This document shows, in pieces, positions 14,089-36,990 of a stretch of 64,000 bases of DNA. The position numbers were made by a program, and so were the translations under genes. Source of the DNA: Thermomonas sp. GTDB lineage: Bacteria > Pseudomonadota > Gammaproteobacteria > Xanthomonadales > Xanthomonadaceae. The stretch spans positions 99,263-163,262 of the forward strand of contig NZ_JAQSDO010000012.1 of the NCBI RefSeq assembly GCF_029945965.1. The letters are read 5' to 3'. The first letter of the stretch is position 1. The number at the start of each line of letters is the position of its first letter. The notes below the pieces were generated by a model that saw only the letters and a program-made list of their open reading frames with translations, had not been told where the DNA came from and did no database searches.

Positions 14089-14125
14089 GCGTCCGCACGG
14101 ACGCCGCGAGTGTCCGGGCGGACAC
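14089..14125. promoter_or_regulatory. Tandem palindromes, putative enhancer sites for the sigma-54 regulator
   Basis: Two 16-bp palindromes, GCGTCCGCACGGACGC (14089-14104) and GTGTCCGGGCGGACAC (14110-14125), share the core GTCCG-N2-CGGAC. Their centres are 21 bp apart, two helical turns. They lie about 77 and 98 bp upstream of the transcription start predicted from the -24/-12 promoter, the usual position for NtrC-type activator sites. The likely binder is the regulator encoded at 19412-20752. The second palindrome is followed by TTTTT and could be mistaken for a terminator. Confidence 0.7.
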
Positions 14126-14168
14126 TTTTTATCTTTGATATTTACTTTTAAATCAGATAGTTAGGACT

Positions 14169-14184
14169 TGGCACGGAGATTGCA
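14169..14184 (+). promoter_or_regulatory. Sigma-54 (-24/-12) promoter of the ABC efflux operon
   Basis: TGGCAC-GGAGA-TTGCA matches the RpoN consensus, with GG (14170-14171) and GC (14182-14183) separated by exactly ten bases. Transcription would start near 14195. That rules out the ATG at 14192 as translation start and favours the ATG at 14222. Confidence 0.8.
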
Positions 14185-14221: not shown

Positions 14222-15517
14222 ATGAACAACCGCTCCCGCATCGCCGATACCTCCGGCCAGGACCAGAGGCTCTCGCAGGCCGCGCAAACTGGCTGGCGCC
14301 ACAAGCGCTGGTTGCCCATCGCTGCCGTCGCAATCGCGGTGCTCGCACTGGCTGGATGGGTGATCTCCGGCTGGGCCGGCGGCGGTCGCTCGTTCGATGC
14401 CTCGCGCCTGCGCATCGCCGAGGTCAAGCGTGGCGACCTGGTCCGCGACCTCAGTGCCGATGGCCGGGTGATCGCCGCCAACAGTCCGACCTTGTACGCA
14501 ATCGCCGGTGGCACCGTGGCATTGAAAGTCGTGGCAGGCGATGTCGTGAAGAAAGACCAGCCGCTGGCGGTGATCGACAGCCCCGAACTGCGCAGCCGGC
14601 TCGCCCAGGAGCAGTCGGCCCTGGCCAGCCTGCAGGCCGGGGCGGGCCGCTCGGTGCTGGATGCGCAACTGGTGCAATCGGCCGCGCGCAAGGCGCTGGA
14701 CCAGGCGCAGGTCGAACAAACTGCCGCCAAGCGCGACCTCGACCGTTACCAGCGCGCGTTCGCGGGCGGTGCAGTGGCCCAGGTCGATGTGGCCAAGGCC
14801 CAGGACGACGTGCAGAAAACCGAGATTGGCGTCGCCCACGCACGTTCCGATCTCGGCCTGCAGGGCCGCGGCGCCAGCCTGGACACGCGCAACAAGCAAC
14901 TGCTGGCCGATCGCCAGCGCGCCGTGGTCGATGAATTGCAGCGGCAGGTTGATGCACTCACGCTGCGCGCACCGTTCGATGGTCAAGTCGGCCAGGTGCA
15001 GATCGCGCAAGGCACCAATGTGGTGGCCAATGCACCGATCCTTGGCGTGGTTGACCTGAGCCTGTTCGAAGTCGAGATCAAGGTCCCGGAAAGTTTTGCC
15101 CGCGACCTGGCGATTGGGATGCCGGCGCAGATCACCAGCAACGGCAAGGCATTCCCGGCCAAGGTTTCGGCGGTGTCGCCGGAAGTCGTCAACGGCGAAG
15201 TCAATGCGCGCCTGCGCTTTGATGCCGGCCAGCAGCCGCCGGCGTTGCGGCAGAACCAGCGCCTGTCCGCACGCATCGTGCTGGACACGCGTCGCGACGT
15301 ATTGATGGTCGAACGTGGCCCGTTCCTGGAGCAGGACGGCGGGCGCTTCGCCTACGTGGTCGACGGCAGCAGCGCCGTGCGCCGTCCAATACAGGCTGGT
15401 GCCAGCAGCCTCAACGCAGTGGAAATCATTTCGGGGTTGCAGCCCGGGCAACGCATCGTCGTTTCCGGCAGCGACCAATTCGACAACGCGGAACGCATCC
15501 GCATCTCCGGACTTTGA
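14222..15517 (+). CDS. HlyD/MacA-type periplasmic adaptor subunit
   Basis: Membrane-fusion (adaptor) protein of 431 residues for a tripartite ABC exporter. One N-terminal membrane helix (WLPIAAVAIAVLALAGWVIS), then a barrel-sandwich/lipoyl-like segment (VVAGDVVKKDQPLAVIDSPEL), a long alpha-helical hairpin rich in Ala, Gln and Arg, and beta-barrel domains ending GLQPGQRIVVSGSDQF. First gene of the operon leading to the ATPase, two permeases and probably the regulatory pair. Start set at 14222 because the ATG at 14192 lies before the predicted sigma-54 transcript start; the ribosome site is weak. The outer-membrane partner is not in the window. Confidence 0.85.
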   Translation: MNNRSRIADTSGQDQRLSQAAQTGWRHKRWLPIAAVAIAVLALAGWVISGWAGGGRSFDASRLRIAEVKRGDLVRDLSADGRVIAANSPTLYAIAGGTVALKVVAGDVVKKDQPLAVIDSPELRSRLAQEQSALASLQAGAGRSVLDAQLVQSAARKALDQAQVEQTAAKRDLDRYQRAFAGGAVAQVDVAKAQDDVQKTEIGVAHARSDLGLQGRGASLDTRNKQLLADRQRAVVDELQRQVDALTLRAPFDGQVGQVQIAQGTNVVANAPILGVVDLSLFEVEIKVPESFARDLAIGMPAQITSNGKAFPAKVSAVSPEVVNGEVNARLRFDAGQQPPALRQNQRLSARIVLDTRRDVLMVERGPFLEQDGGRFAYVVDGSSAVRRPIQAGASSLNAVEIISGLQPGQRIVVSGSDQFDNAERIRISGL

Positions 15518-15533
15518 AAAGAGACAACTGACC

Positions 15534-15794
15534 ATGGACAACACGATGAAGACTCGTTCCGCAACGACACACGCCTTGAATACACATGCCGCCGTCATGC
15601 CGCTGCAGACCCATTGGGACTCACGGCAGCTGGCCGACGCAGTGCCGCTGCGGCTGTCGCAGCTGCTCGACTTCAGTGCCGACACGCTGCGCGCATGCGA
15701 CCGCGCAAGCGCCAACGCAGCCGCCATGCACGGCATCCGCAGGAGCACGACCTTCCTGCCGGCTCCTGCACTGACGCTGTTTCGCACCCGCTAA
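15534..15794 (+). CDS. Small hypothetical protein within the ABC operon
   Basis: An 86-residue open frame starting ATGGACAACACG, 16 bases after the adaptor stop and ending 28 bases before the ATPase. It has no signal peptide or membrane helix; the middle (LSQLLDFSADTLRACDRASA) could form an amphipathic helix, and the end is basic. Not recognised. It fills the only gap between two operon genes and keeps normal codon use, which supports expression, but the ribosome site (AGAGAC) is poor. Confidence 0.5.
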   Translation: MDNTMKTRSATTHALNTHAAVMPLQTHWDSRQLADAVPLRLSQLLDFSADTLRACDRASANAAAMHGIRRSTTFLPAPALTLFRTR

Positions 15795-15822: not shown

Positions 15823-16551
15823 ATGTTGGACATGCGCCAGGTCACCAAGGTCTACCGTACCGAACTCGTCGAGACACACGCGCTGCGCTCGCTCGACCTG
15901 CAGGTCAAGGAAGGCGAATTCGTCGCCGTCACTGGCCCGTCTGGTTCCGGCAAGACCACCTTCCTCAACATCGCCGGCCTGCTGGAGGGTTTCACCGGCG
16001 GCGAATACTTGCTCGATGGGGTGAACGTCCAAGGCTTGTCAGACGATGCGCGCAGCAAGCTGCGCAACCAGAAAATCGGCTTCATTTTTCAGGGATTCAA
16101 CCTGATCCCCGACCTCAATATCTTCGACAATGTCGATGTGCCGTTGCGCTACCGCGGGATGTCGGCCAGTGAACGCAAATTGCGGATCGAGGATTCACTG
16201 GGACTGGTCGGCCTGAGTTCGCGCATGAAGCACTTCCCCGCCGAACTCTCCGGCGGCCAGCAGCAACGCGCCGCGATCGCGCGCGCACTGGCCGGCAGTC
16301 CGCGCTTGCTGCTGGCGGACGAACCCACCGGCAATTTGGATTCGCAAATGGCGCGCAGCGTGCTGGAGCTGCTGGAAGACATCAACCAGCAGGGAACCAC
16401 CATTGTGATGGTGACCCACGACCCGGAATTGGCCGCACGCGCGCAACGCAACGTGCACATCGTTGATGGCATGGCGACCGATCTGTCGGTCGAACCCAGC
16501 CTGTCCCGCGTCGCGGAAGCCTCGCACCACAGTGAAGCAACGGCCTCGTAG
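15823..16551 (+). CDS. ABC transporter ATP-binding protein, MacB/LolD-like
   Basis: ATPase of 242 residues with Walker A GPSGSGKTT, Q-loop FQGFNLIPDLNIFDNV, signature LSGGQQQR, Walker B LLLADEPTGNLD and the H-loop VTHD. The Q-loop sequence and length place it with the MacB/LolD/FtsE ATPases that drive FtsX-type permeases by mechanotransmission. It powers the two permeases downstream. AAAGGA lies upstream of the ATG. The TAG stop is formed inside the palindromic repeat that begins at 16548. Confidence 0.93.
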   Translation: MLDMRQVTKVYRTELVETHALRSLDLQVKEGEFVAVTGPSGSGKTTFLNIAGLLEGFTGGEYLLDGVNVQGLSDDARSKLRNQKIGFIFQGFNLIPDLNIFDNVDVPLRYRGMSASERKLRIEDSLGLVGLSSRMKHFPAELSGGQQQRAAIARALAGSPRLLLADEPTGNLDSQMARSVLELLEDINQQGTTIVMVTHDPELAARAQRNVHIVDGMATDLSVEPSLSRVAEASHHSEATAS

Positions 16552-16629
16552 AGGCGGGTCTTGACCCGCCTTCGCCAGGATGCATGAAGAAAACAGATCA
16601 AAATCATAGCGGGTCAAGACCCGCTCTAC
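16548..16629. repeat. Paired REP-like inverted repeat (GCGGGTC family)
   Basis: GTAGAGGCGGGTCTTGACCC on the left and GGGTCAAGACCCGCTCTACG on the right are two palindromic units in opposite orientation flanking a 35-base AT-richer spacer. Fills the whole gap between the ATPase and permease genes and provides the ATPase stop codon. Confidence 0.75.
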
Positions 16630-16639
16630 GGAGCCTTCC

Positions 16640-17953
16640 ATGTTCGGCTATTACCTCAAACTCGCCCTGCACAGCTTCAAGCGCAACAAGGCGCTGACCG
16701 CACTGATGGTGCTGGCAATCGCGCTCGGCATCGGCGCCAGCATGACCACGCTGACCGTATTCCATATCCTGTCCGGCGACCCGCTACCGGAGCGCAGCGC
16801 GACCCTGTTCTATCCGCAGATGGCGCCGGAAAGCATGGACGGCTATGTTCCGGGCGAGGAGCCTAACGGCCAGTTGACCCGCTTCGATGCCGAATCATTG
16901 CTGCGCGAAAAGCGCGGCGACCGCCAGGCGATGATGACCGGCGGCAGCGTGGCGATCGAACCGCAACACGCGGGCCTGTCGCCGATGAGCATTGATGCGC
17001 GCTATACGACCGCCGACATGTTCCCGATGTTCGCGATGCCCTTCCTGTACGGCAATGGCTGGAGCGCGACCGACGACGCGGGGCATGCGCGGGTGGTGGT
17101 GGTCAGCAAGGCGCTGAACGAAAAACTCTTCGGCGGCAAGGACAGCATCGGCAAGAACGTGCGCATCGACAAAGCCGACTTCCGCATCAGTGGCGTGCTC
17201 GATACGTGGCGGCCGACGCCGAAGTTCTATGACATGAATGGCAACAATGGCTACGGCGAAAGCGACCAGGCGTTCCTGCCGTTCTCGACTTCGCGCGACC
17301 TGAAGATGGGTCGCAACGGCAACATGAACTGCTGGGGCGATACCGGCGCTGACCCCGAGGGTGAAACTGGCATCAATGCGCCCTGCGCCTGGATCCAGTA
17401 CTGGGTGCAGTTGGACACACCCGAGAAGGCCGCGGCATACAAGCAGTACCTCACCAACTATTCCGACCAGCAACGGGCGGCGGGGCGCTTCGTGCTTCCG
17501 ACCAATGTCCGCCTGCGCGGGCTGATGGAATGGCTGGACTTCAACAAGGTGGTGCCGGGCGACGTGCGCTTGCAGGTCTGGCTGGCGCTGGGCTTCCTGC
17601 TGGTGTGCCTGCTCAACACGGTGGGCCTGCTGCTGGCGAAGTTCCTGCGGCGCAGTGGCGAACTCGGTGTGCGACGTGCGCTGGGCGCATCGCGCAAGAC
17701 CATCTTCATGCAATGCCTGGTCGAGGCCGGTGCGATTGGCTTGGCTGGCGGCATCGTCGGACTGGCGCTTGCGTGGCTGGGACTGTGGGCGGTGCGCCAG
17801 CAGCCTACCGACTACGCGGATCTCGCCCATCTGGATCCGAGCATGCTGCTGACGACCTTCGCACTCGCGTTGATCACCAGCCTGCTTGCCGGCTTGCTGC
17901 CGGCCTGGAGCGCGATGCAGGTGTCGCCCGCCATGCAGTTGAAATCTCAATAG
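16640..17953 (+). CDS. ABC transporter permease, FtsX/MacB-like
   Basis: Permease of 437 residues with the FtsX topology: an N-terminal membrane helix (ALTALMVLAIALGIGASMTTL), a large periplasmic domain of about 260 residues (MacB-type core, with KLFGGKDSIGKNVRIDKADFRISGV), then three C-terminal helices (VWLALGFLLVCLLNTVGLLLA, CLVEAGAIGLAGGIVGLALA, LLTTFALALITSLLAGLLPA). The conserved VRRALGASRKTIFMQCLVE coupling segment precedes helix 3. It should pair with the second permease as a heterodimer with the ATPase upstream. Substrate unknown. Confidence 0.9.
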   Translation: MFGYYLKLALHSFKRNKALTALMVLAIALGIGASMTTLTVFHILSGDPLPERSATLFYPQMAPESMDGYVPGEEPNGQLTRFDAESLLREKRGDRQAMMTGGSVAIEPQHAGLSPMSIDARYTTADMFPMFAMPFLYGNGWSATDDAGHARVVVVSKALNEKLFGGKDSIGKNVRIDKADFRISGVLDTWRPTPKFYDMNGNNGYGESDQAFLPFSTSRDLKMGRNGNMNCWGDTGADPEGETGINAPCAWIQYWVQLDTPEKAAAYKQYLTNYSDQQRAAGRFVLPTNVRLRGLMEWLDFNKVVPGDVRLQVWLALGFLLVCLLNTVGLLLAKFLRRSGELGVRRALGASRKTIFMQCLVEAGAIGLAGGIVGLALAWLGLWAVRQQPTDYADLAHLDPSMLLTTFALALITSLLAGLLPAWSAMQVSPAMQLKSQ

Positions 17954-18090
17954 CTCACTCCCTCCCCCGCTTGCGGGGGAGGGTTGGGGTGGGGGCGCCG
18001 GTTCCCGTCCACCCCAAAGTCATGGACCGATTGTCGAGTGTCGTCATACACCCCCATCCCAGCCTTCCCCCGCACGCAGGGGAAGGGGCG
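17954..18090. repeat. Paired inverted repeat (CCCCCGCTTGCGGGGG family)
   Basis: The left unit is CTCCCCCGCTTGCGGGGGAG followed by GGTTGGGGTGGGGG. The right unit is the reverse arrangement: ACCCCCATCCCAGCC, then CTTCCCCCGCACGCAGGGGAAG. The unit type is widespread between genes in proteobacteria. It fills the space between the two permease genes; because it can fold into strong hairpins it may tune the permease ratio or protect RNA ends. Confidence 0.75.
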
Positions 18091-18112
18091 AAAAGCCACT
18101 AGGAGAACTGCC

Positions 18113-19345
18113 ATGAACATCCGCCCCATCCTCTCCACGCTGCTGCGCCACAAGATGGCCGCCGCGCTGATCGTGCTGGAGATCGCATTGAGCTGCGCGA
18201 TCATCTGCAACGCCCTGTTCCTGATCAGCAACCGCATCGATCGGATCAAGCAGGGTAGCGGCGCGGTCGAAAACGAGATCGTGCACGTGCAGATTACCGG
18301 TATCGGCACCGATGACAATGCAGAAGCCCTGACCCGCAGCGACCTGGCGATCCTGCAAGGATTACCAGGCGTCAAGGCCGCGACCTCGACCAACCAGGTG
18401 CCGTACGGCAATGGATCGTGGAATACCTCGATCAAGATGGTCAAGGATCAGAAGCAGCCCACGATGAGTGCGACGGTTTACATGACCGACGACAGTTTCA
18501 TGGACACGATGGGGCTCAAGTTGGTCTCGGGTCGCCGATTCAACACCGATGAATTCATCGAATGGTCCGTACTCAATGCGCCGGGCAGCAAGGCCCAGAT
18601 CCCGGCGGTCATCATCACCCACAGCATGGCCGACAAGCTGTTCCCGGCCGGCGATGCACTGGGCAAGACCTTCTACAGCTGGGGTGACAACCCGCTCCGC
18701 GTGGTGGGCGTGGTCGAGCACCTGGCCCGCCCCAACGAGCAGGGCGGTCCGGCCCAGCGCGAATACTCGATGATGTTCCCGATCAGGGCGCCTTATACCT
18801 TGGGCGCCACCTATCTGATCCGCAGCGAAGAAAGCCGCCGCGACGAAGTGATGAAGTCCGCGGTTGATGCGCTTCGCAAGAACGGCCCGAACCGGATCGT
18901 GATTGAAGAAAACACCAAGACGATGGAAGCCATGCGCGCCGACTATTACCGGCAGGACCGCGCGATGGCCTGGCTGCTGTCCACGGTGATCATTGCGCTG
19001 CTGGTGGTGACCGCGCTCGGCATCGTTGGACTGGCGAGTTTCTGGGTGCAGCAACGAACCAAGCAGATCGGCATACGGCGCGCGTTGGGCGCGACCCGCG
19101 GGCAGATCCTGCGTTACTTCCAGACCGAGAATTTCCTGTTGGCCACCATTGGTATCGCGCTTGGCATGTTGCTGGCGTACGCGATCAACCAACTGCTGAT
19201 GGCCAAGTACGAATTGCCGCGCCTGCCATTGGCCTACCTGCCGGTTGGCGCGATCGCCTTGTGGCTGCTTGGCCAGTTCGCAGTGTTCTGGCCGGCACGC
19301 CGCGGCGCCGCAGTGCCGCCTGCGGTCGCGACACGGAGTGCATAA
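18113..19345 (+). CDS. ABC transporter permease, FtsX/MacB-like (second)
   Basis: Permease of 410 residues with the same layout as the first: N-terminal helix (MAAALIVLEIALSCAIICNALFL), periplasmic domain (LSGRRFNT-type GLKLVSGRRF, LFPAGDALGKTFY), and three C-terminal helices around WLLSTVIIALLVVTALGIVGL, FLLATIGIALGMLLAYAI and LPVGAIALWLLGQFAVF. GIRRALGATRGQILRYFQTE is the coupling segment. The longer frame (from 17984) reads through the repeat; the ATG at 18113 has AGGAG eight bases upstream. Probably forms a heterodimer with the preceding permease. Confidence 0.9.
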   Translation: MNIRPILSTLLRHKMAAALIVLEIALSCAIICNALFLISNRIDRIKQGSGAVENEIVHVQITGIGTDDNAEALTRSDLAILQGLPGVKAATSTNQVPYGNGSWNTSIKMVKDQKQPTMSATVYMTDDSFMDTMGLKLVSGRRFNTDEFIEWSVLNAPGSKAQIPAVIITHSMADKLFPAGDALGKTFYSWGDNPLRVVGVVEHLARPNEQGGPAQREYSMMFPIRAPYTLGATYLIRSEESRRDEVMKSAVDALRKNGPNRIVIEENTKTMEAMRADYYRQDRAMAWLLSTVIIALLVVTALGIVGLASFWVQQRTKQIGIRRALGATRGQILRYFQTENFLLATIGIALGMLLAYAINQLLMAKYELPRLPLAYLPVGAIALWLLGQFAVFWPARRGAAVPPAVATRSA

Positions 19346-19355
19346 GCACATTGCC

Positions 19356-19383
19356 AGCCCGTCGGCTTGTGCGCCGACGGGCT
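19356..19383. promoter_or_regulatory. Strong hairpin between permease and regulator genes
   Basis: AGCCCGTCGGC and GCCGACGGGCT pair perfectly over 11 bp with a six-base loop. No T-run follows, so it is not a clear terminator. It could attenuate or process the transcript before the regulatory genes, which would lower regulator levels relative to the transporter. Confidence 0.45.
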
Positions 19384-19411: not shown

Positions 19412-20752
19412 ATGCCCTCGATCCTCGTCATTGACGACAACCCTGCCGTGGCCACCGCGCTGGAGATGCTGTTCTGCCTGCACGACATCGACGTGGTGCA
19501 TGCCGCCTCGCCACGGCATGGCCTGCAGCGGCTGCGCGACGACGGCATCGACCTGGTCATCCAGGACATGAACTTCGAGACAGATACAACCTCGGGCGAG
19601 GAAGGCGTCGCGCTGTTCCATCAGATCCGCAGCGACCATCCCGACCTGCCAGTGATACTGCTCACCGCATGGACGCACCTGGAATCGGCGATCGACCTGG
19701 TCAAGGCCGGCGCCGTCGATTACCTGGCCAAACCCTGGGATGACCGCAAGCTGCTGGCCACCGTCAACAACCTGCTGGAACTTGCTCAGGCGCAACGCGA
19801 GTTGGCGCAGGAACGTGCCGGCGAACGGCGCAGGCGTGAAGCATTGCTGCGCGACTTCGACCTGCGTGGACTGGTATTCGCCGACAATGCCAGCGAGAAC
19901 ATGCTGGCACTCGCCTGCCAGATTGCACGTGCCGACATCCCGGTGCTGATCACCGGTCCGAACGGCACAGGCAAAGAGAAATATGCGGAAATCGTGCATG
20001 CCAACTCCGGCGTTCGCAACGGCCCGTTCATCGCACTCAATTGCGGCGCGCTGCCAGCAGACTTGATCGAAGCAGAACTGTTCGGTGCCGAACCGGGTGC
20101 CTATACCGGCGCAAGCAAGGTGCGCGAAGGCAAATTCGAAGCCGCACACGGCGGCACGCTGTTCCTCGACGAAATCGGCACGCTGCCACTCGCTGGTCAG
20201 GTGAAGTTGTTGCGGGTGCTGGAGACCGGCCGCTTCCAGCGCTTGGGCAGCAACCAAGAGCGCACGGTCAAGGTGCGCATCATCAGTGCGACCAATGCAA
20301 ACCTGCCGACCTTGATTGCCAGCGGTTCATTTCGCGAGGACCTGTTTTACCGGCTCAACGGCATCGAACTGCGGTTGCCGCCTTTGGCCCAGCGCCCGCG
20401 CGACATCCTGCCGCTGGCGCGTCATTTCCTGCCTGCTGACAAGCGCCTGGGCGATGATGCAGAACGCGTGCTGCTTCGGCATGCCTGGCCGGGCAACGTG
20501 CGCGAGCTGCGTAATGTGATGCAACGCTCCGCGCTGCTGGCGCGCGGGGATATCGTATCTGCGACTGACCTCAACCTGCAGCCCGCCATGTCGGCGACTA
20601 CAAACACCCATGGCGACGAGCCCGACCGCGCGATGATCGAGGCTGCGCTGGTACACAACGGTGGCGTGCTGGCGCAGGCCGCAGCCGAGCTGGGCTTGTC
20701 GCGGCAGGCGCTGTACCGGCGGCTGGACCGCCACGGCATCAAGCGCGACTGA
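19412..20752 (+). CDS. Sigma-54-dependent response regulator, NtrC family
   Basis: Activator of 446 residues: receiver domain (D8, D9 and phospho-acceptor D52), AAA+ domain of about residues 150-375, and a Fis-type helix-turn-helix at the end (LAQAAAELGLSRQALYRRLD). Walker A is GPNGTGKE rather than the usual GESGTGKE, Walker B is TLFLDEIG, and the sigma-54 contact loop reads GAYTGA instead of GAFTGA, a tolerated aromatic change. It overlaps the kinase start by one base. Its probable target is the -24/-12 promoter at 14169 through the two palindromes at 14089-14125, making the operon self-regulated. Confidence 0.92.
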   Translation: MPSILVIDDNPAVATALEMLFCLHDIDVVHAASPRHGLQRLRDDGIDLVIQDMNFETDTTSGEEGVALFHQIRSDHPDLPVILLTAWTHLESAIDLVKAGAVDYLAKPWDDRKLLATVNNLLELAQAQRELAQERAGERRRREALLRDFDLRGLVFADNASENMLALACQIARADIPVLITGPNGTGKEKYAEIVHANSGVRNGPFIALNCGALPADLIEAELFGAEPGAYTGASKVREGKFEAAHGGTLFLDEIGTLPLAGQVKLLRVLETGRFQRLGSNQERTVKVRIISATNANLPTLIASGSFREDLFYRLNGIELRLPPLAQRPRDILPLARHFLPADKRLGDDAERVLLRHAWPGNVRELRNVMQRSALLARGDIVSATDLNLQPAMSATTNTHGDEPDRAMIEAALVHNGGVLAQAAAELGLSRQALYRRLDRHGIKRD

Positions 20753-22080
20753 TGATGCGCTGGTGGCATCGCATGTCGTTGGCCTGGCTGTACGCCGCAC
20801 TGGCGTGCGCGTACATGCTTGCGGCAGGCGGCTTGGCGATGCTGTTGACGCGCTGGTTGCACACTTGGTCAGCAACGCTGGTAGCCGCGGCAGTGCTGGC
20901 ACCATTCCTCATTTACCAGGTGCATCGATTGTTCGCACCGGTGCGTTCGTTGTTCCGTGCGCTGGCTGGGAGCGTCGCCAGTTATCGCGATGGCGACTAC
21001 AGTTTCGGCATCGCGTGGCATGGACAAGGCGAACTGCGCGAGTTGGTGGAAAGCCATCGTGAACTAGGCGACACGCTTCGCAAACAACGCTTAACGCTGG
21101 TGCAACGCGAACTGCTGCTCGACACCATCGTGCAGAACACGCCGGTGGCCATGGTGCTACTCGATCCTAGCCGGCGCGTGGTGCTCGGCAACCTCGCCGC
21201 GCGCAAGGTGTTCGGCGACGGCCATCGGCTGGAAGGACAGTCGTTCGAAGACATCCTGGCGCGCACGGATGAAGCCGTGCGCGATGCATTCGCGCGTGGC
21301 GGCGATGGCATGTTCACGGTGGGCGACAGCGGCGATGATGCAAGCGGTAACGAGGACATCTACCACCTGTCGCGGCGCACCTTCCGCTTGAATGGGCGCG
21401 CGCACGAACTGGTATTGCTGCGCCTGCTCACCGCTGAACTGCGGCGGCAGGAAGTGCAGACCTGGAAAAAAGTCATCCGGGTCATCAGCCATGAGCTCAA
21501 CAATTCACTGGCACCGATTGCATCACTCGCGCATTCGGGCAGCGAGCTGCTGCGTCGCAAGCAGTACGAACGCCTGCCGGTCGCACTGGCCACGATCGAG
21601 GAACGCGCGCGGCATCTGGAAGGTTTCATCCGCGACTACGCACGCTTCGCCAAGCTGCCCTCACCTCGGCTTGTCCCGATCGAATGGGCACGCTTCATCG
21701 AGCAACTGCGCACCCAGGTCGAATTCGTCGCCGAGCTCACCCCGACCGATGGCATCGTGCGCGTCGATGTTGCGCAGCTCGAACAAGGTTTGATCAACCT
21801 GCTCAAGAACGCGCATGAATCCGGCTCCGCACCGGGCGACGTGCGACTGCATGTGCGCCGGTTGCCGGTGGGCTGGCGGATCGAGGTGCTGGATCGCGGC
21901 ACCGGCATGAACGAAGCGGTGCTGGCGAATGCGCTGTTGCCGTTCTATTCGACCAAGCGCAACGGTACCGGGCTGGGACTTGCGCTGGCACGCGAAATCG
22001 CCGAAGCGCACGACGGCCGCATCGCCCTGCTCAACCGGGATGGTGGCGGCCTGTGCGTGAGCCTGACATTGCCGCTGTAG
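20752..22080 (+). CDS. Membrane sensor histidine kinase
   Basis: Kinase of 442 residues. Two membrane helices near the N-terminus (LAWLYAALACAYMLAAGGLA and WSATLVAAAVLAPFLIYQ) with almost no periplasmic loop between them, then a PAS-like region (LLDTIVQNTPVAMVLLDPSR). The phospho-acceptor motif is VISHELNNSLAPI (His near residue 247), as in NtrY-type kinases, and the ATPase domain ends with GTGLGLALAREIAEAHDG. Starts at the ATG that overlaps the regulator stop (TGATG). The short sensory region suggests it detects a membrane or internal signal, possibly through the transporter. Confidence 0.92.
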   Translation: MMRWWHRMSLAWLYAALACAYMLAAGGLAMLLTRWLHTWSATLVAAAVLAPFLIYQVHRLFAPVRSLFRALAGSVASYRDGDYSFGIAWHGQGELRELVESHRELGDTLRKQRLTLVQRELLLDTIVQNTPVAMVLLDPSRRVVLGNLAARKVFGDGHRLEGQSFEDILARTDEAVRDAFARGGDGMFTVGDSGDDASGNEDIYHLSRRTFRLNGRAHELVLLRLLTAELRRQEVQTWKKVIRVISHELNNSLAPIASLAHSGSELLRRKQYERLPVALATIEERARHLEGFIRDYARFAKLPSPRLVPIEWARFIEQLRTQVEFVAELTPTDGIVRVDVAQLEQGLINLLKNAHESGSAPGDVRLHVRRLPVGWRIEVLDRGTGMNEAVLANALLPFYSTKRNGTGLGLALAREIAEAHDGRIALLNRDGGGLCVSLTLPL

Positions 22081-30266: not shown

Positions 30267-30352
30267 GTAGAGCGGGGCTTGCCCCGCTTGAGTCTCATCG
30301 CGAAGCAAGCTCCGCATGTGCATCTAATGCAGCGGGGCGAGCCCCGCTCTAC
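30267..30352. repeat. Paired REP-like repeat between atpA and atpG
   Basis: GTAGAGCGGGGCTTGCCCCG (from 30267) and the opposite-facing CGGGGCGAGCCCCGCTCTAC (to 30352) flank a 42-base spacer. Same architecture as the pair at 16548-16629 with a different palindrome core. Confidence 0.8.
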
Positions 30353-35067: not shown

Positions 35068-36990
35068 TTAAGCGCGGCTTTTCGCCTTGGGGATGTAGAG
35101 GTCGGTAATCGTGCCTTCGTAGACCTCGGCCGCCATGCCCACCGACTCACCCAGGGTCGGGTGCGGATGGATCGTGTTGCCGATGTCGGCAGCTTCGCAG
35201 CCCATCTCGATCGCCAGCGCGACTTCGCTGATCAGCTCGCCCGCGTGCACCCCGACAATGCCGCCGCCGATCACCCGATGGCTGGCTTCGTCGAATATCA
35301 GCTTGGTGAAGCCTTCGGTGCGCGAAATGCCGATTGCACGCCCCGAGGCCGCCCACGGGAACTTGCCGACGCCGATCTTCAGCCCCTTGGCCTTGGCTTC
35401 GATCTCCGTGACGCCGACCCAGGCGATTTCCGGATCGGTATAAGCCACCGACGGAATCACGCGGGCCACCCACTCTTTCTTTTCGCCGGCCGCGACTTCG
35501 GCGGCGAGCTTGCCTTCGTGCGTGGCCTTGTGCGCCAGCATCGGCTGGCCGACCAGGTCGCCGATGGCGAAGATGTGCGGCACATTGGTGCGCATCTGAA
35601 CATCGACCGGGATCAGCCCGCGCTCGCCGACGCGCACGCCGGCCTTTTCGGCATCGAGTTTTCCGCCGTTGGCGCTGCGACCCACGGCCACCAAAACGCG
35701 ATCAAAGAGCTTGCCGTCAGGCATGCTTTCGCCCTCGAACGTGCAGGTGATGCCGTTCTTCTGTGCCTTGGCCTCAATCACCTTGGTCTTCAGGTGCACG
35801 GCCACACCCTGCTTCTTCAGGCGATCAGCGAGCGGCTTGACAAGATCAAGGTCCGCCCCCGGCATCAGCTGCGGCATGAACTCGACCACGGTCACTTCGC
35901 TACCCAGCGCGCGATAGACAGTGGCCATTTCGAGCCCGATGATGCCGCCGCCGACGACCAGCAACTTCTTCGGTACTTCGGCCAGCTCCAGCGCATCGGT
36001 GGAGTCCATCACCCGCGGGTCGTCCCACGGGAAGCCCGGCAGCTTCACCGGCTGCGAACCAGCGGCGATGATGCAGTTGGTGAAGTGCAGCAGTTGGGCC
36101 TTGCTGTCGGCATCGGTGATTTCCAGCTCGTTGGCCGAGACGAACCGACCCGTGCCGTGCACCACGCGGATCTTGCGTTGCTTGGCCATGCCTGCCAGGC
36201 CATTGGTGAGCTGGCCGACCACTTTTTCCTTGTAGCTGCGCAGCTTGTCGAGGCTGATCTTCGGTGCGCCGAACTCCACGCCGTACTCGCTGGCATGCGC
36301 AGCTTCGTCGATGACGGCGGCGGCGTGCAGCAGCGCCTTGGACGGGATGCAACCGACGTTGAGGCAGACACCGCCCAGCTCGGCGTAGCGTTCGATCAAC
36401 ACCGTATCGAGACCTAGGTCGGCGGCGCGGAACGCAGCCGTATAGCCGCCGGGACCGGCGCCCAACACGACCATGGCGCAGCTGATGTCAGCGCTGCGGC
36501 CGGAAGCGCCTGCGGCTTTCGGAGCGGTTGCTTCTGGCTCCTTCTCCTGCGAAGCGGGGTGAGAGCCCGCAGCTGGCGTGCCAACGGCGCGCGCGGAATC
36601 GAACGCCTGCGCCGCTGGCGCAGGCTGGGGCGCGGGGGAAGGTTGGGATGGGGGCGCTTTTGCAGTCACAGCACTCTGGCCGCCACCTTCACCCGCCGCG
36701 CTACGCGCGTCGACTTCTCCTGCCTGCGGCACAGGTGAGGAACTGGCGCCTTCCAATTCCAGCATCGCAATCACCGCACCTTCCGAGACGGTATCGCCCA
36801 GCTTGATCTTCAGCGCGGTGATCACGCCGGCCGCCGGCGACGGCACTTCCATCGTGGCCTTGTCGGATTCCAGCGTGACCAGTCCCTGATCCTTGGTAAC
36901 GGTGTCGCCTACCGCGACCAGCAGTTCGATCACCGGTACATCGCCGTGCCCACCAATGTCGGGGACGCGTACTTCGATTGCATTGCCCAT
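35068..36990 (-). CDS. lpdA: Dihydrolipoamide dehydrogenase (E3) with N-terminal lipoyl domain
   Basis: E3 of the pyruvate dehydrogenase complex, 640 residues. A lipoyl domain (residues 5-80, modified Lys44 in ESDKATMEVP) is joined by a low-complexity linker (about 83-168) to the FAD domain (GAGPGG, 177-182), the redox pair C209/C214 (CLNVGC), the NAD-binding GGGIIGLEMA, and the C-terminal His-Glu dyad in HPHPTLGE. E3 with its own lipoyl domain is known in several bacteria. The linker DNA near 36600-36670 resembles an intergenic repeat. GGGAG precedes the ATG. Last gene of the E2-MscS-hydrolase-E3 operon. Confidence 0.95.
   Translation of the reverse strand: MGNAIEVRVPDIGGHGDVPVIELLVAVGDTVTKDQGLVTLESDKATMEVPSPAAGVITALKIKLGDTVSEGAVIAMLELEGASSSPVPQAGEVDARSAAGEGGGQSAVTAKAPPSQPSPAPQPAPAAQAFDSARAVGTPAAGSHPASQEKEPEATAPKAAGASGRSADISCAMVVLGAGPGGYTAAFRAADLGLDTVLIERYAELGGVCLNVGCIPSKALLHAAAVIDEAAHASEYGVEFGAPKISLDKLRSYKEKVVGQLTNGLAGMAKQRKIRVVHGTGRFVSANELEITDADSKAQLLHFTNCIIAAGSQPVKLPGFPWDDPRVMDSTDALELAEVPKKLLVVGGGIIGLEMATVYRALGSEVTVVEFMPQLMPGADLDLVKPLADRLKKQGVAVHLKTKVIEAKAQKNGITCTFEGESMPDGKLFDRVLVAVGRSANGGKLDAEKAGVRVGERGLIPVDVQMRTNVPHIFAIGDLVGQPMLAHKATHEGKLAAEVAAGEKKEWVARVIPSVAYTDPEIAWVGVTEIEAKAKGLKIGVGKFPWAASGRAIGISRTEGFTKLIFDEASHRVIGGGIVGVHAGELISEVALAIEMGCEAADIGNTIHPHPTLGESVGMAAEVYEGTITDLYIPKAKSRA

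Follow-up and report, generated by a model that had tools for sequence, protein, structure and literature searches.

Does an exporter operon that ends with genes for its own two-component system also switch itself on? The question is raised by a MacB/FtsX-type operon within the 64-kb stretch of DNA analysed here (the window), whose last two genes, both on the + strand, code for an NtrC-type response regulator (19412-20752; REC, AAA+ with GAYTGA, Fis-type HTH) and a sensor kinase (20752-22080; two TM segments with a short outside loop, followed by PAS-like, HisKA-like and HATPase regions). An earlier sequence-only reading had correctly placed this pair at the end of the operon and proposed a self-contained sigma-54 circuit, in which the regulator would bind palindromes upstream of the adaptor gene and control its own exporter. 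Given the regulator, the sites, the promoter and the similar layout found in relatives, we consider it very probable (roughly 0.8) that the exporter switches itself on through a sigma-54 enhancer circuit acting via the operon's own regulator.

The promoter region has a well-defined anatomy, conserved among relatives with a near-fixed geometry. It contains two exact dyads predicted to be enhancer sites, a distal GTCCG-CA-CGGAC (GTCCGCACGGAC, 14091-14102) and a proximal GTCCG-GG-CGGAC (GTCCGGGCGGAC, 14112-14123), with centres at 14096.5 and 14117.5, i.e., a spacing of 21 bp or two helical turns. Counted from the T of the -24 element, half-site centres lie at -76 and -69 in the distal dyad and at -55 and -48 in the proximal one. 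The candidate sigma-54 promoter, TGGCACG-GAGA-TTGC (TGGCACGGAGATTGC, 14169-14183, + strand), is a perfect TGGCACG-N4-TTGC in which GG (14170-14171), N10 and GC (14182-14183) provide the -24/-12 spacing. Between dyads and promoter, the + strand sequence AATCAGATAGTTA (14151-14163) exactly matches WATCARNNNNTTR, which we take to be the IHF consensus; there are two such exact matches in the whole window, this one included. Transcripts start about 12 bp past the -12 C, and by this rule the transcript should start at about 14195, which puts the dyad centres some 98 and 77 bp upstream of it. Hence both the consensus GG-N10-GC promoter before the adaptor gene and the paired palindromes at about these distances, as first described, were confirmed, while the IHF-consensus site had been missed. 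The adaptor start has also been moved, ATG 14222 being more likely than the listed ATG 14192 since the latter precedes the predicted start of transcription by 3 nt.

Downstream, all features lie on the + strand. The first gene codes for a HlyD/MacA-like periplasmic adaptor with one TM segment (14222-15517; TIGR01730, HlyD_D23 and HlyD_3 over cut-off). It is followed by an unannotated small protein of 86 aa (15534-15794) bearing the motif W-x4-LADAVPLRLSQLLDF; without match in Pfam or NCBIfam, it is conserved in relatives, aligning with 20 of the 23 that have an adaptor-ATPase gap of 150-700 bp (L021, L024 and L068, where no similar ORF was picked up, were left out of the comparison), and L33, A36, P38 and L41 are invariant in the aligned proteins. 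Next come a LolD/MacB/DarD-like ABC exporter ATPase (15823-16551; ABC_tran over cut-off) and two MacB-like permeases (16640-17953 and 18113-19345, with ATG 18113 preferred for the second), each matching MacB_PCD and FtsX, with 4 TM segments by hydropathy and a large stretch after TM1. Repeat-like sequences are interspersed among these genes. An intergenic hairpin with two repeat-like palindromes (16553-16625; -39.2 kcal/mol, z -5.5) separates the ATPase gene from the first permease gene, and its tandem hairpins, GGCGGGTCTTGACCCGCC and GCGGGTCAAGACCCGC, are REP-like with similar copies near 30271 and 30331. A repeat-like element of 153 bp, hairpin-like at both ends (17954-18106), separates the permease genes, and pieces of it recur near 36636 with 2 mismatches.

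A further hairpin, AGCCCGTCGGC-N6-GCCGACGGGCT (19356-19383; -30.2 kcal/mol, z -2.6), which lacks a U-run, lies between the exporter and regulator genes, and several relatives have longer gaps or extra genes at this place. Autoregulation of the regulator is consequently uncertain. The order of the genes given in the sequence-only reading holds, but this strong hairpin parts the regulator and kinase from the exporter genes; likewise, the proposed feedback loop is favoured by comparison as far as the exporter promoter is concerned but not onto the regulator and kinase themselves.

Conservation of the promoter region was assessed in 81 loci, comprising the window and the best 80 of at least 588 regulator relatives, of which 71 (window included) had a usable adaptor start and entered the promoter counts. 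Those without adaptor match on the stretch (L025, L032, L033, L035, L040, L042, L058, L059, L061) were left out together with L066, whose adaptor is truncated, and L038 was kept despite having only 95 bases upstream. All 71 loci, which are related and in some cases nearly identical so that the counts are not independent, have a sigma-54 score of at least 13 upstream of the adaptor, as compared with 20 of 2015 random windows. At least three CGGAC/GTCCG half-sites are found between -100 and -30 in 70 of them, against a mean of 1.6 loci (maximum 6) after dinucleotide shuffling and 0.15% of random windows; over the 125 bp upstream, half-site density is 19-fold that of the remaining locus sequence. 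In L078 (Nannocystineae) the zone holds a single half-site, and L029 (Kofleriaceae) has six around it, with its best promoter match at the predicted start. A CGGAC close to the promoter, at -51 to -46, and a more distant half-site, at -72 to -80, are each present in 64 loci, and 58 loci have both. The IHF consensus is matched exactly at -18/-17 in 30/71 loci (shuffle mean 0.2, maximum 2; random 2/4115) and with at most one mismatch at the same place in 56 (random about 0.07%); the other 15, which include every one of the seven S. maltophilia/S. sepilia loci, have two or more mismatches at this position. Within the genus itself, 17 of 25 genomes carry the regulator, as do 16 of the 20 near-complete ones. 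Of 16 such relatives, G199 lacked an adaptor on its stretch and went unscored; in each of the other 15, a set partly overlapping the 80 above, the sigma-54 score reaches 13.9 or more and three or more half-sites lie within 125 bp.

What is conserved is not the paired palindrome. The check suggested with the sequence-only reading, conservation of the pair upstream of orthologous operons, was run and, read literally, all but fails: the exact pair at 21 bp occurs in just 8 of 71 loci and at least one exact dyad in 20 (window included), which rules out the exact pair and points to the CGGAC half-site, kept in arrays nearly throughout, as the conserved unit. Half-sites are common to Lysobacteraceae and Oxalobacteraceae loci and their arrangement varies: 52 of the 71 loci have inverted half-sites 0-2 bp apart, 12 have CGGAC in one direction and 7 have other mixtures. 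Most Lysobacteraceae loci are of the inverted type. The 12 Oxalobacteraceae loci, grouped in a single starred clade of the regulator tree, comprise 10 one-direction and 2 mixed arrays, and of the 41 steps from one CGGAC to the next in these arrays 29 measure 8-10 bp, that is, a direct repeat about every 9 bp; L006 and L078 are the other two one-direction loci. We infer from these sequences that both arrangements are read by DNA-binding domains of a single kind. A half-site that is inverted in one family and mostly direct in another offers a natural test of how DNA is recognised by a bEBP ring.

Could the array serve a regulator other than the operon's own? In many loci it sits in the divergent region between glmS and the adaptor gene, and the genome encodes two other strong bEBPs, so that NtrC, the AtoC-like bEBP or a regulator of glmS might own the sites, with the operon's regulator acting elsewhere. 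We find this quite improbable, for the position of the array follows the promoter. In 50 loci with a near-full glmS match and at least two half-sites, the distance from the array centroid to the -24 element has a standard deviation of 4.3 bp, against 33.5 bp for the distance to the glmS start, which argues that the array belongs to the exporter promoter and not to the neighbouring glmS; the dyads were rejected as a glmS site on the same loose spacing. Moreover, the array stays with the operon in the 21 loci without a glmS match on the flank, including the 12 Oxalobacteraceae (L078 excepted), and is retained in G005, G057 and G035, where the operon lies beside trmL. Among 16 genomes of the own genus, a loose array pattern occurred in 11 of the 12 with the regulator and in none of the 4 without, a weak test because the reversed control of this pattern matches often. 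As evidence in its own right the loose pattern was discarded, as 232 of 296 genomes match it and the reversed control does so as often or more.

Nor does the layout readily suit repression. Palindromes can be operators, and in some relatives half-sites reach about -39 or closer, so the array might be the operator of a repressor blocking the promoter, or the unphosphorylated regulator might itself repress. Yet most of the array lies between -76 and -48, counted from the -24 element, and not over it, and the IHF site between them fits the usual activator layout, which makes an operator a most improbable account. The proposal that the regulator acts, as an activator, on its own exporter promoter is instead favoured by the comparison, with the arrays and sigma-54-like promoters found nearly throughout, a recognition-helix core, SRxxLYR, invariant in 81/81 regulators, one half-site shared by Lysobacteraceae and Oxalobacteraceae and, as far as searched, no second array in this genome.

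The domain make-up, phosphorylation site and ATPase motifs of the regulator suit this role. REC, Sigma54_activat and the Fis-type HTH are all over cut-off in the window protein, and the phospho-acceptor D52, K188 of Walker A and DE253-254 of Walker B are present in 81/81 regulators. Tyrosine takes the third position of the GAFTGA loop in 80 of 81 regulators, the whole GAYTGA being found in 74; according to passages of PMC7057263, such a tyrosine occurs in a small number of bEBPs. Regulator and kinase matches come together in 81/81 loci, although that of L066 is just a 37% fragment at a contig end. Three strong and three weak bEBP matches were detected in the genome, the strong ones being NtrC (over cut-off), an AtoC-like protein (under cut-off) and the operon's own regulator. 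For X. oryzae, PMC6090019 lists a mutant of GX_XOC0286, an 'ntrC family' regulator that may or may not be the counterpart of this one.

Exact GTCCG-N2-CGGAC dyads are rare in this 3.24-Mb genome, with 3 copies as compared with 10.7 expected from the base composition of the window. Two of them are those at 14091-14123, the sole exact matches within the window. With up to two mismatches the window holds 40 matches, fewer than the 57.7 of shuffled sequence, and these loose matches are therefore meaningless. The third exact dyad (G000:C6:286998, L001) was considered as a second target and rejected, as it lies inside what we read as a long peptidase-like reading frame; no sigma-54 site was noticed by eye in 400 bases around it. 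Six perfect TGGCACG-N4-TTGC sequences occur in the genome, and only that at 14169-14183 has at least two half-sites in the 130 bp upstream. A genome-wide search for one arrangement, CGGAC 30-60 bp before TGGCAY-N6-TGC, returned five places; apart from this promoter, none of them has more than one half-site between -80 and -40. In that search and among the 30 of 156 near-consensus sigma-54 sites examined singly for arrays, no second half-site array was found at a sigma-54-like site. As far as searched, then, the circuit looks dedicated to the exporter in this genome. The rarity of the array also means that much of the regulon should be legible from sequence.

The same does not hold across the family. 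In 15 of 50 sampled trmL loci, all of the positives being relatives although this genome's locus was in the sample, three or more half-sites accompany a sigma-54-like site within 1.5 kb upstream, as compared with 0/50 on the reverse strand of the same regions and zero matches to this promoter and array elsewhere in 2.4 million strand-bases of the operon loci. Each of the 15 promoters (L181, L185, L206, L229 and L204 among them) is followed by a small ORF for a secreted- or membrane-like protein. In L181, L185, L206 and L229 the ORF has an N-terminal hydrophobic stretch, six more g43 loci being alike; in the other 11 we read a signal-peptide-like protein with repeats of the 'VQVRPS' or 'PTVTV' type, hydropathy having been computed for three examples. 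For two of these repeat proteins Pfam gave no match over cut-off, and the sole one put to NCBIfam matched XAC0231_fam over cut-off; a literature search found no papers naming XAC0231. In this genome neither a trmL-linked array nor an XAC0231-family match was found, and a 75-aa protein used as query gave a best match of E 0.07. Arrays were also seen elsewhere. In g23 genomes (L128, L129, L161) a promoter of this kind is followed by another small protein, of 76-101 aa, two of these proteins containing MFESLIQVLHQLALNALGL..., and in L128 and L129 an apparently aceF-like gene is divergent. On the - strand of L162 (G008:C15), half-sites at -76/-69/-54/-47 precede a sigma-54-like site followed by an ORF that we read as resembling a GntR/MocR-type regulator, and in L168 (G210:C237) an array and sigma-54-like promoter lie before what appears to be a CPBP-protease-like membrane protein. 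With trmL-linked, g23, L162 and L168 arrays in existence, the regulator is not single-target across the family. 'Self-contained' therefore describes this genome, within the searches made, but not the relatives, whose regulon points to small secreted- or membrane-like proteins beside trmL.

On the activator reading, kinase 20752 would phosphorylate regulator 19412, as members of these families do, and the active regulator would bind the half-site array at 14091-14123. IHF would bend the DNA at 14151-14163, bringing the AAA+ ring of the regulator into contact with sigma-54 polymerase at 14169-14183, where the promoter would open in an rpoN-dependent manner; the genome has one rpoN match and an ihfA match over cut-off. 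Transcription would then cover the adaptor, the small protein, the ATPase and the two permeases, and also the regulator and kinase if it passes the hairpin at 19356-19383. Sites, bending site, promoter and regulator together make a testable switch for an exporter operon of many Lysobacteraceae and Oxalobacteraceae.

How would the signal reach the kinase? By hydropathy, the window kinase has two TM segments joined by a very short loop, with hardly anything in the periplasm. Of 81 kinases, 62 were predicted to have exactly two such segments ahead of residue 120 and 19 to have three or four; in the three of the latter that were looked at, the third segment starts at 117-118. HATPase_c is over cut-off in the window kinase, HisKA and PAS_8 fall just under theirs, and the HELNN box is invariant in 29/29 aligned kinases. 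PMC10314905 and PMC3023708 describe intramembrane-type kinases that work with ABC transporters in Bce modules, and the two TM segments and near-absent outside loop shared with these make transporter-coupled sensing plausible here. By this analogy the signal might reach the kinase through the exporter, a Bce-like arrangement with sigma-54 output, to which we would give somewhat less than an even chance. It is rather doubtful, though by no means far-fetched, that the kinase instead senses a cytoplasmic cue via its PAS-like region with the exporter as output only. The PAS_8 match at residues 123-173, under the curated cut-off, and the many residues around this region that are invariant in the 29 aligned kinases agree with a cytoplasmic cue, but the constant pairing with exporter genes and the near-absent periplasmic part fit transporter-coupled sensing equally well. 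A fuller version of the latter, unlikely as a whole, would make this a Gram-negative counterpart of Bce flux sensing: the exporter would sense its substrate and drive the kinase, the regulator ring would read CGGAC either inverted or as a 9-bp direct repeat, and the regulon of relatives would include the trmL-adjacent small proteins. If this were true, these proteins, one of them of the XAC0231 family, may be exporter cargo, a probe or a feedback part.

NtrC-glnA type enhancer systems share the -24/-12 promoter, the upstream sites with IHF between and the two-component bEBP; they differ from the present system in its short CGGAC half-site of variable arrangement, its GAFTGA-loop tyrosine and its exporter target. 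With MacAB-TolC exporters the operon shares the HlyD/MacA-like adaptor, the 4-TM permeases with MacB_PCD and FtsX and the LolD/MacB-like ATPase. Unlike in MacAB-TolC, the ATPase and two permeases are separate proteins here, an 86-aa protein is added and a TolC gene is absent among the operon genes examined. The exporter is thus MacB-like and not MacB, its ATPase gene being separate from the permeases. The Bce regulator is OmpR-type, and with an NtrC-type regulator the present system at most 'works like' Bce. Bce modules of Firmicutes, as described in PMC10314905 and PMC3023708, do have ABC genes beside a 2-TM kinase with a near-absent outside loop, while here these come with an NtrC/sigma-54 regulator, MacB-type permeases and an adaptor in a Gram-negative bacterium.

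In part, the link is already in print: passages of a 2025 survey (PMC12316311) report, as 'first evidence', that sigma-54 promoters are enriched before COG0577 (FtsX-like) permeases, gamma-Proteobacteria included; for this permease link, those passages mention neither an operon or regulator nor enhancer sites or IHF. XibR of Xanthomonas campestris is an NtrC-family regulator from the same bacterial family, described in part of PMC5130282 as an orphan with GAFTGA, whereas the regulator studied here is kinase-adjacent with GAYTGA; on that description we rejected identity with XibR. The darobactin exporter DarBCD is approached by the ATPase, adaptor and permease 2 in NCBIfam, all under curated cut-offs (263 of 375, 68 of 450 and 30 of 700 bits, respectively). 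Among the papers listed, none was about this operon according to its title or the opening of its abstract, and its function did not come up in the literature searched. The main parts belong to known families, and their combination, a MacB-type exporter with an intramembrane-type kinase and a sigma-54 regulator, is a variant of these systems.
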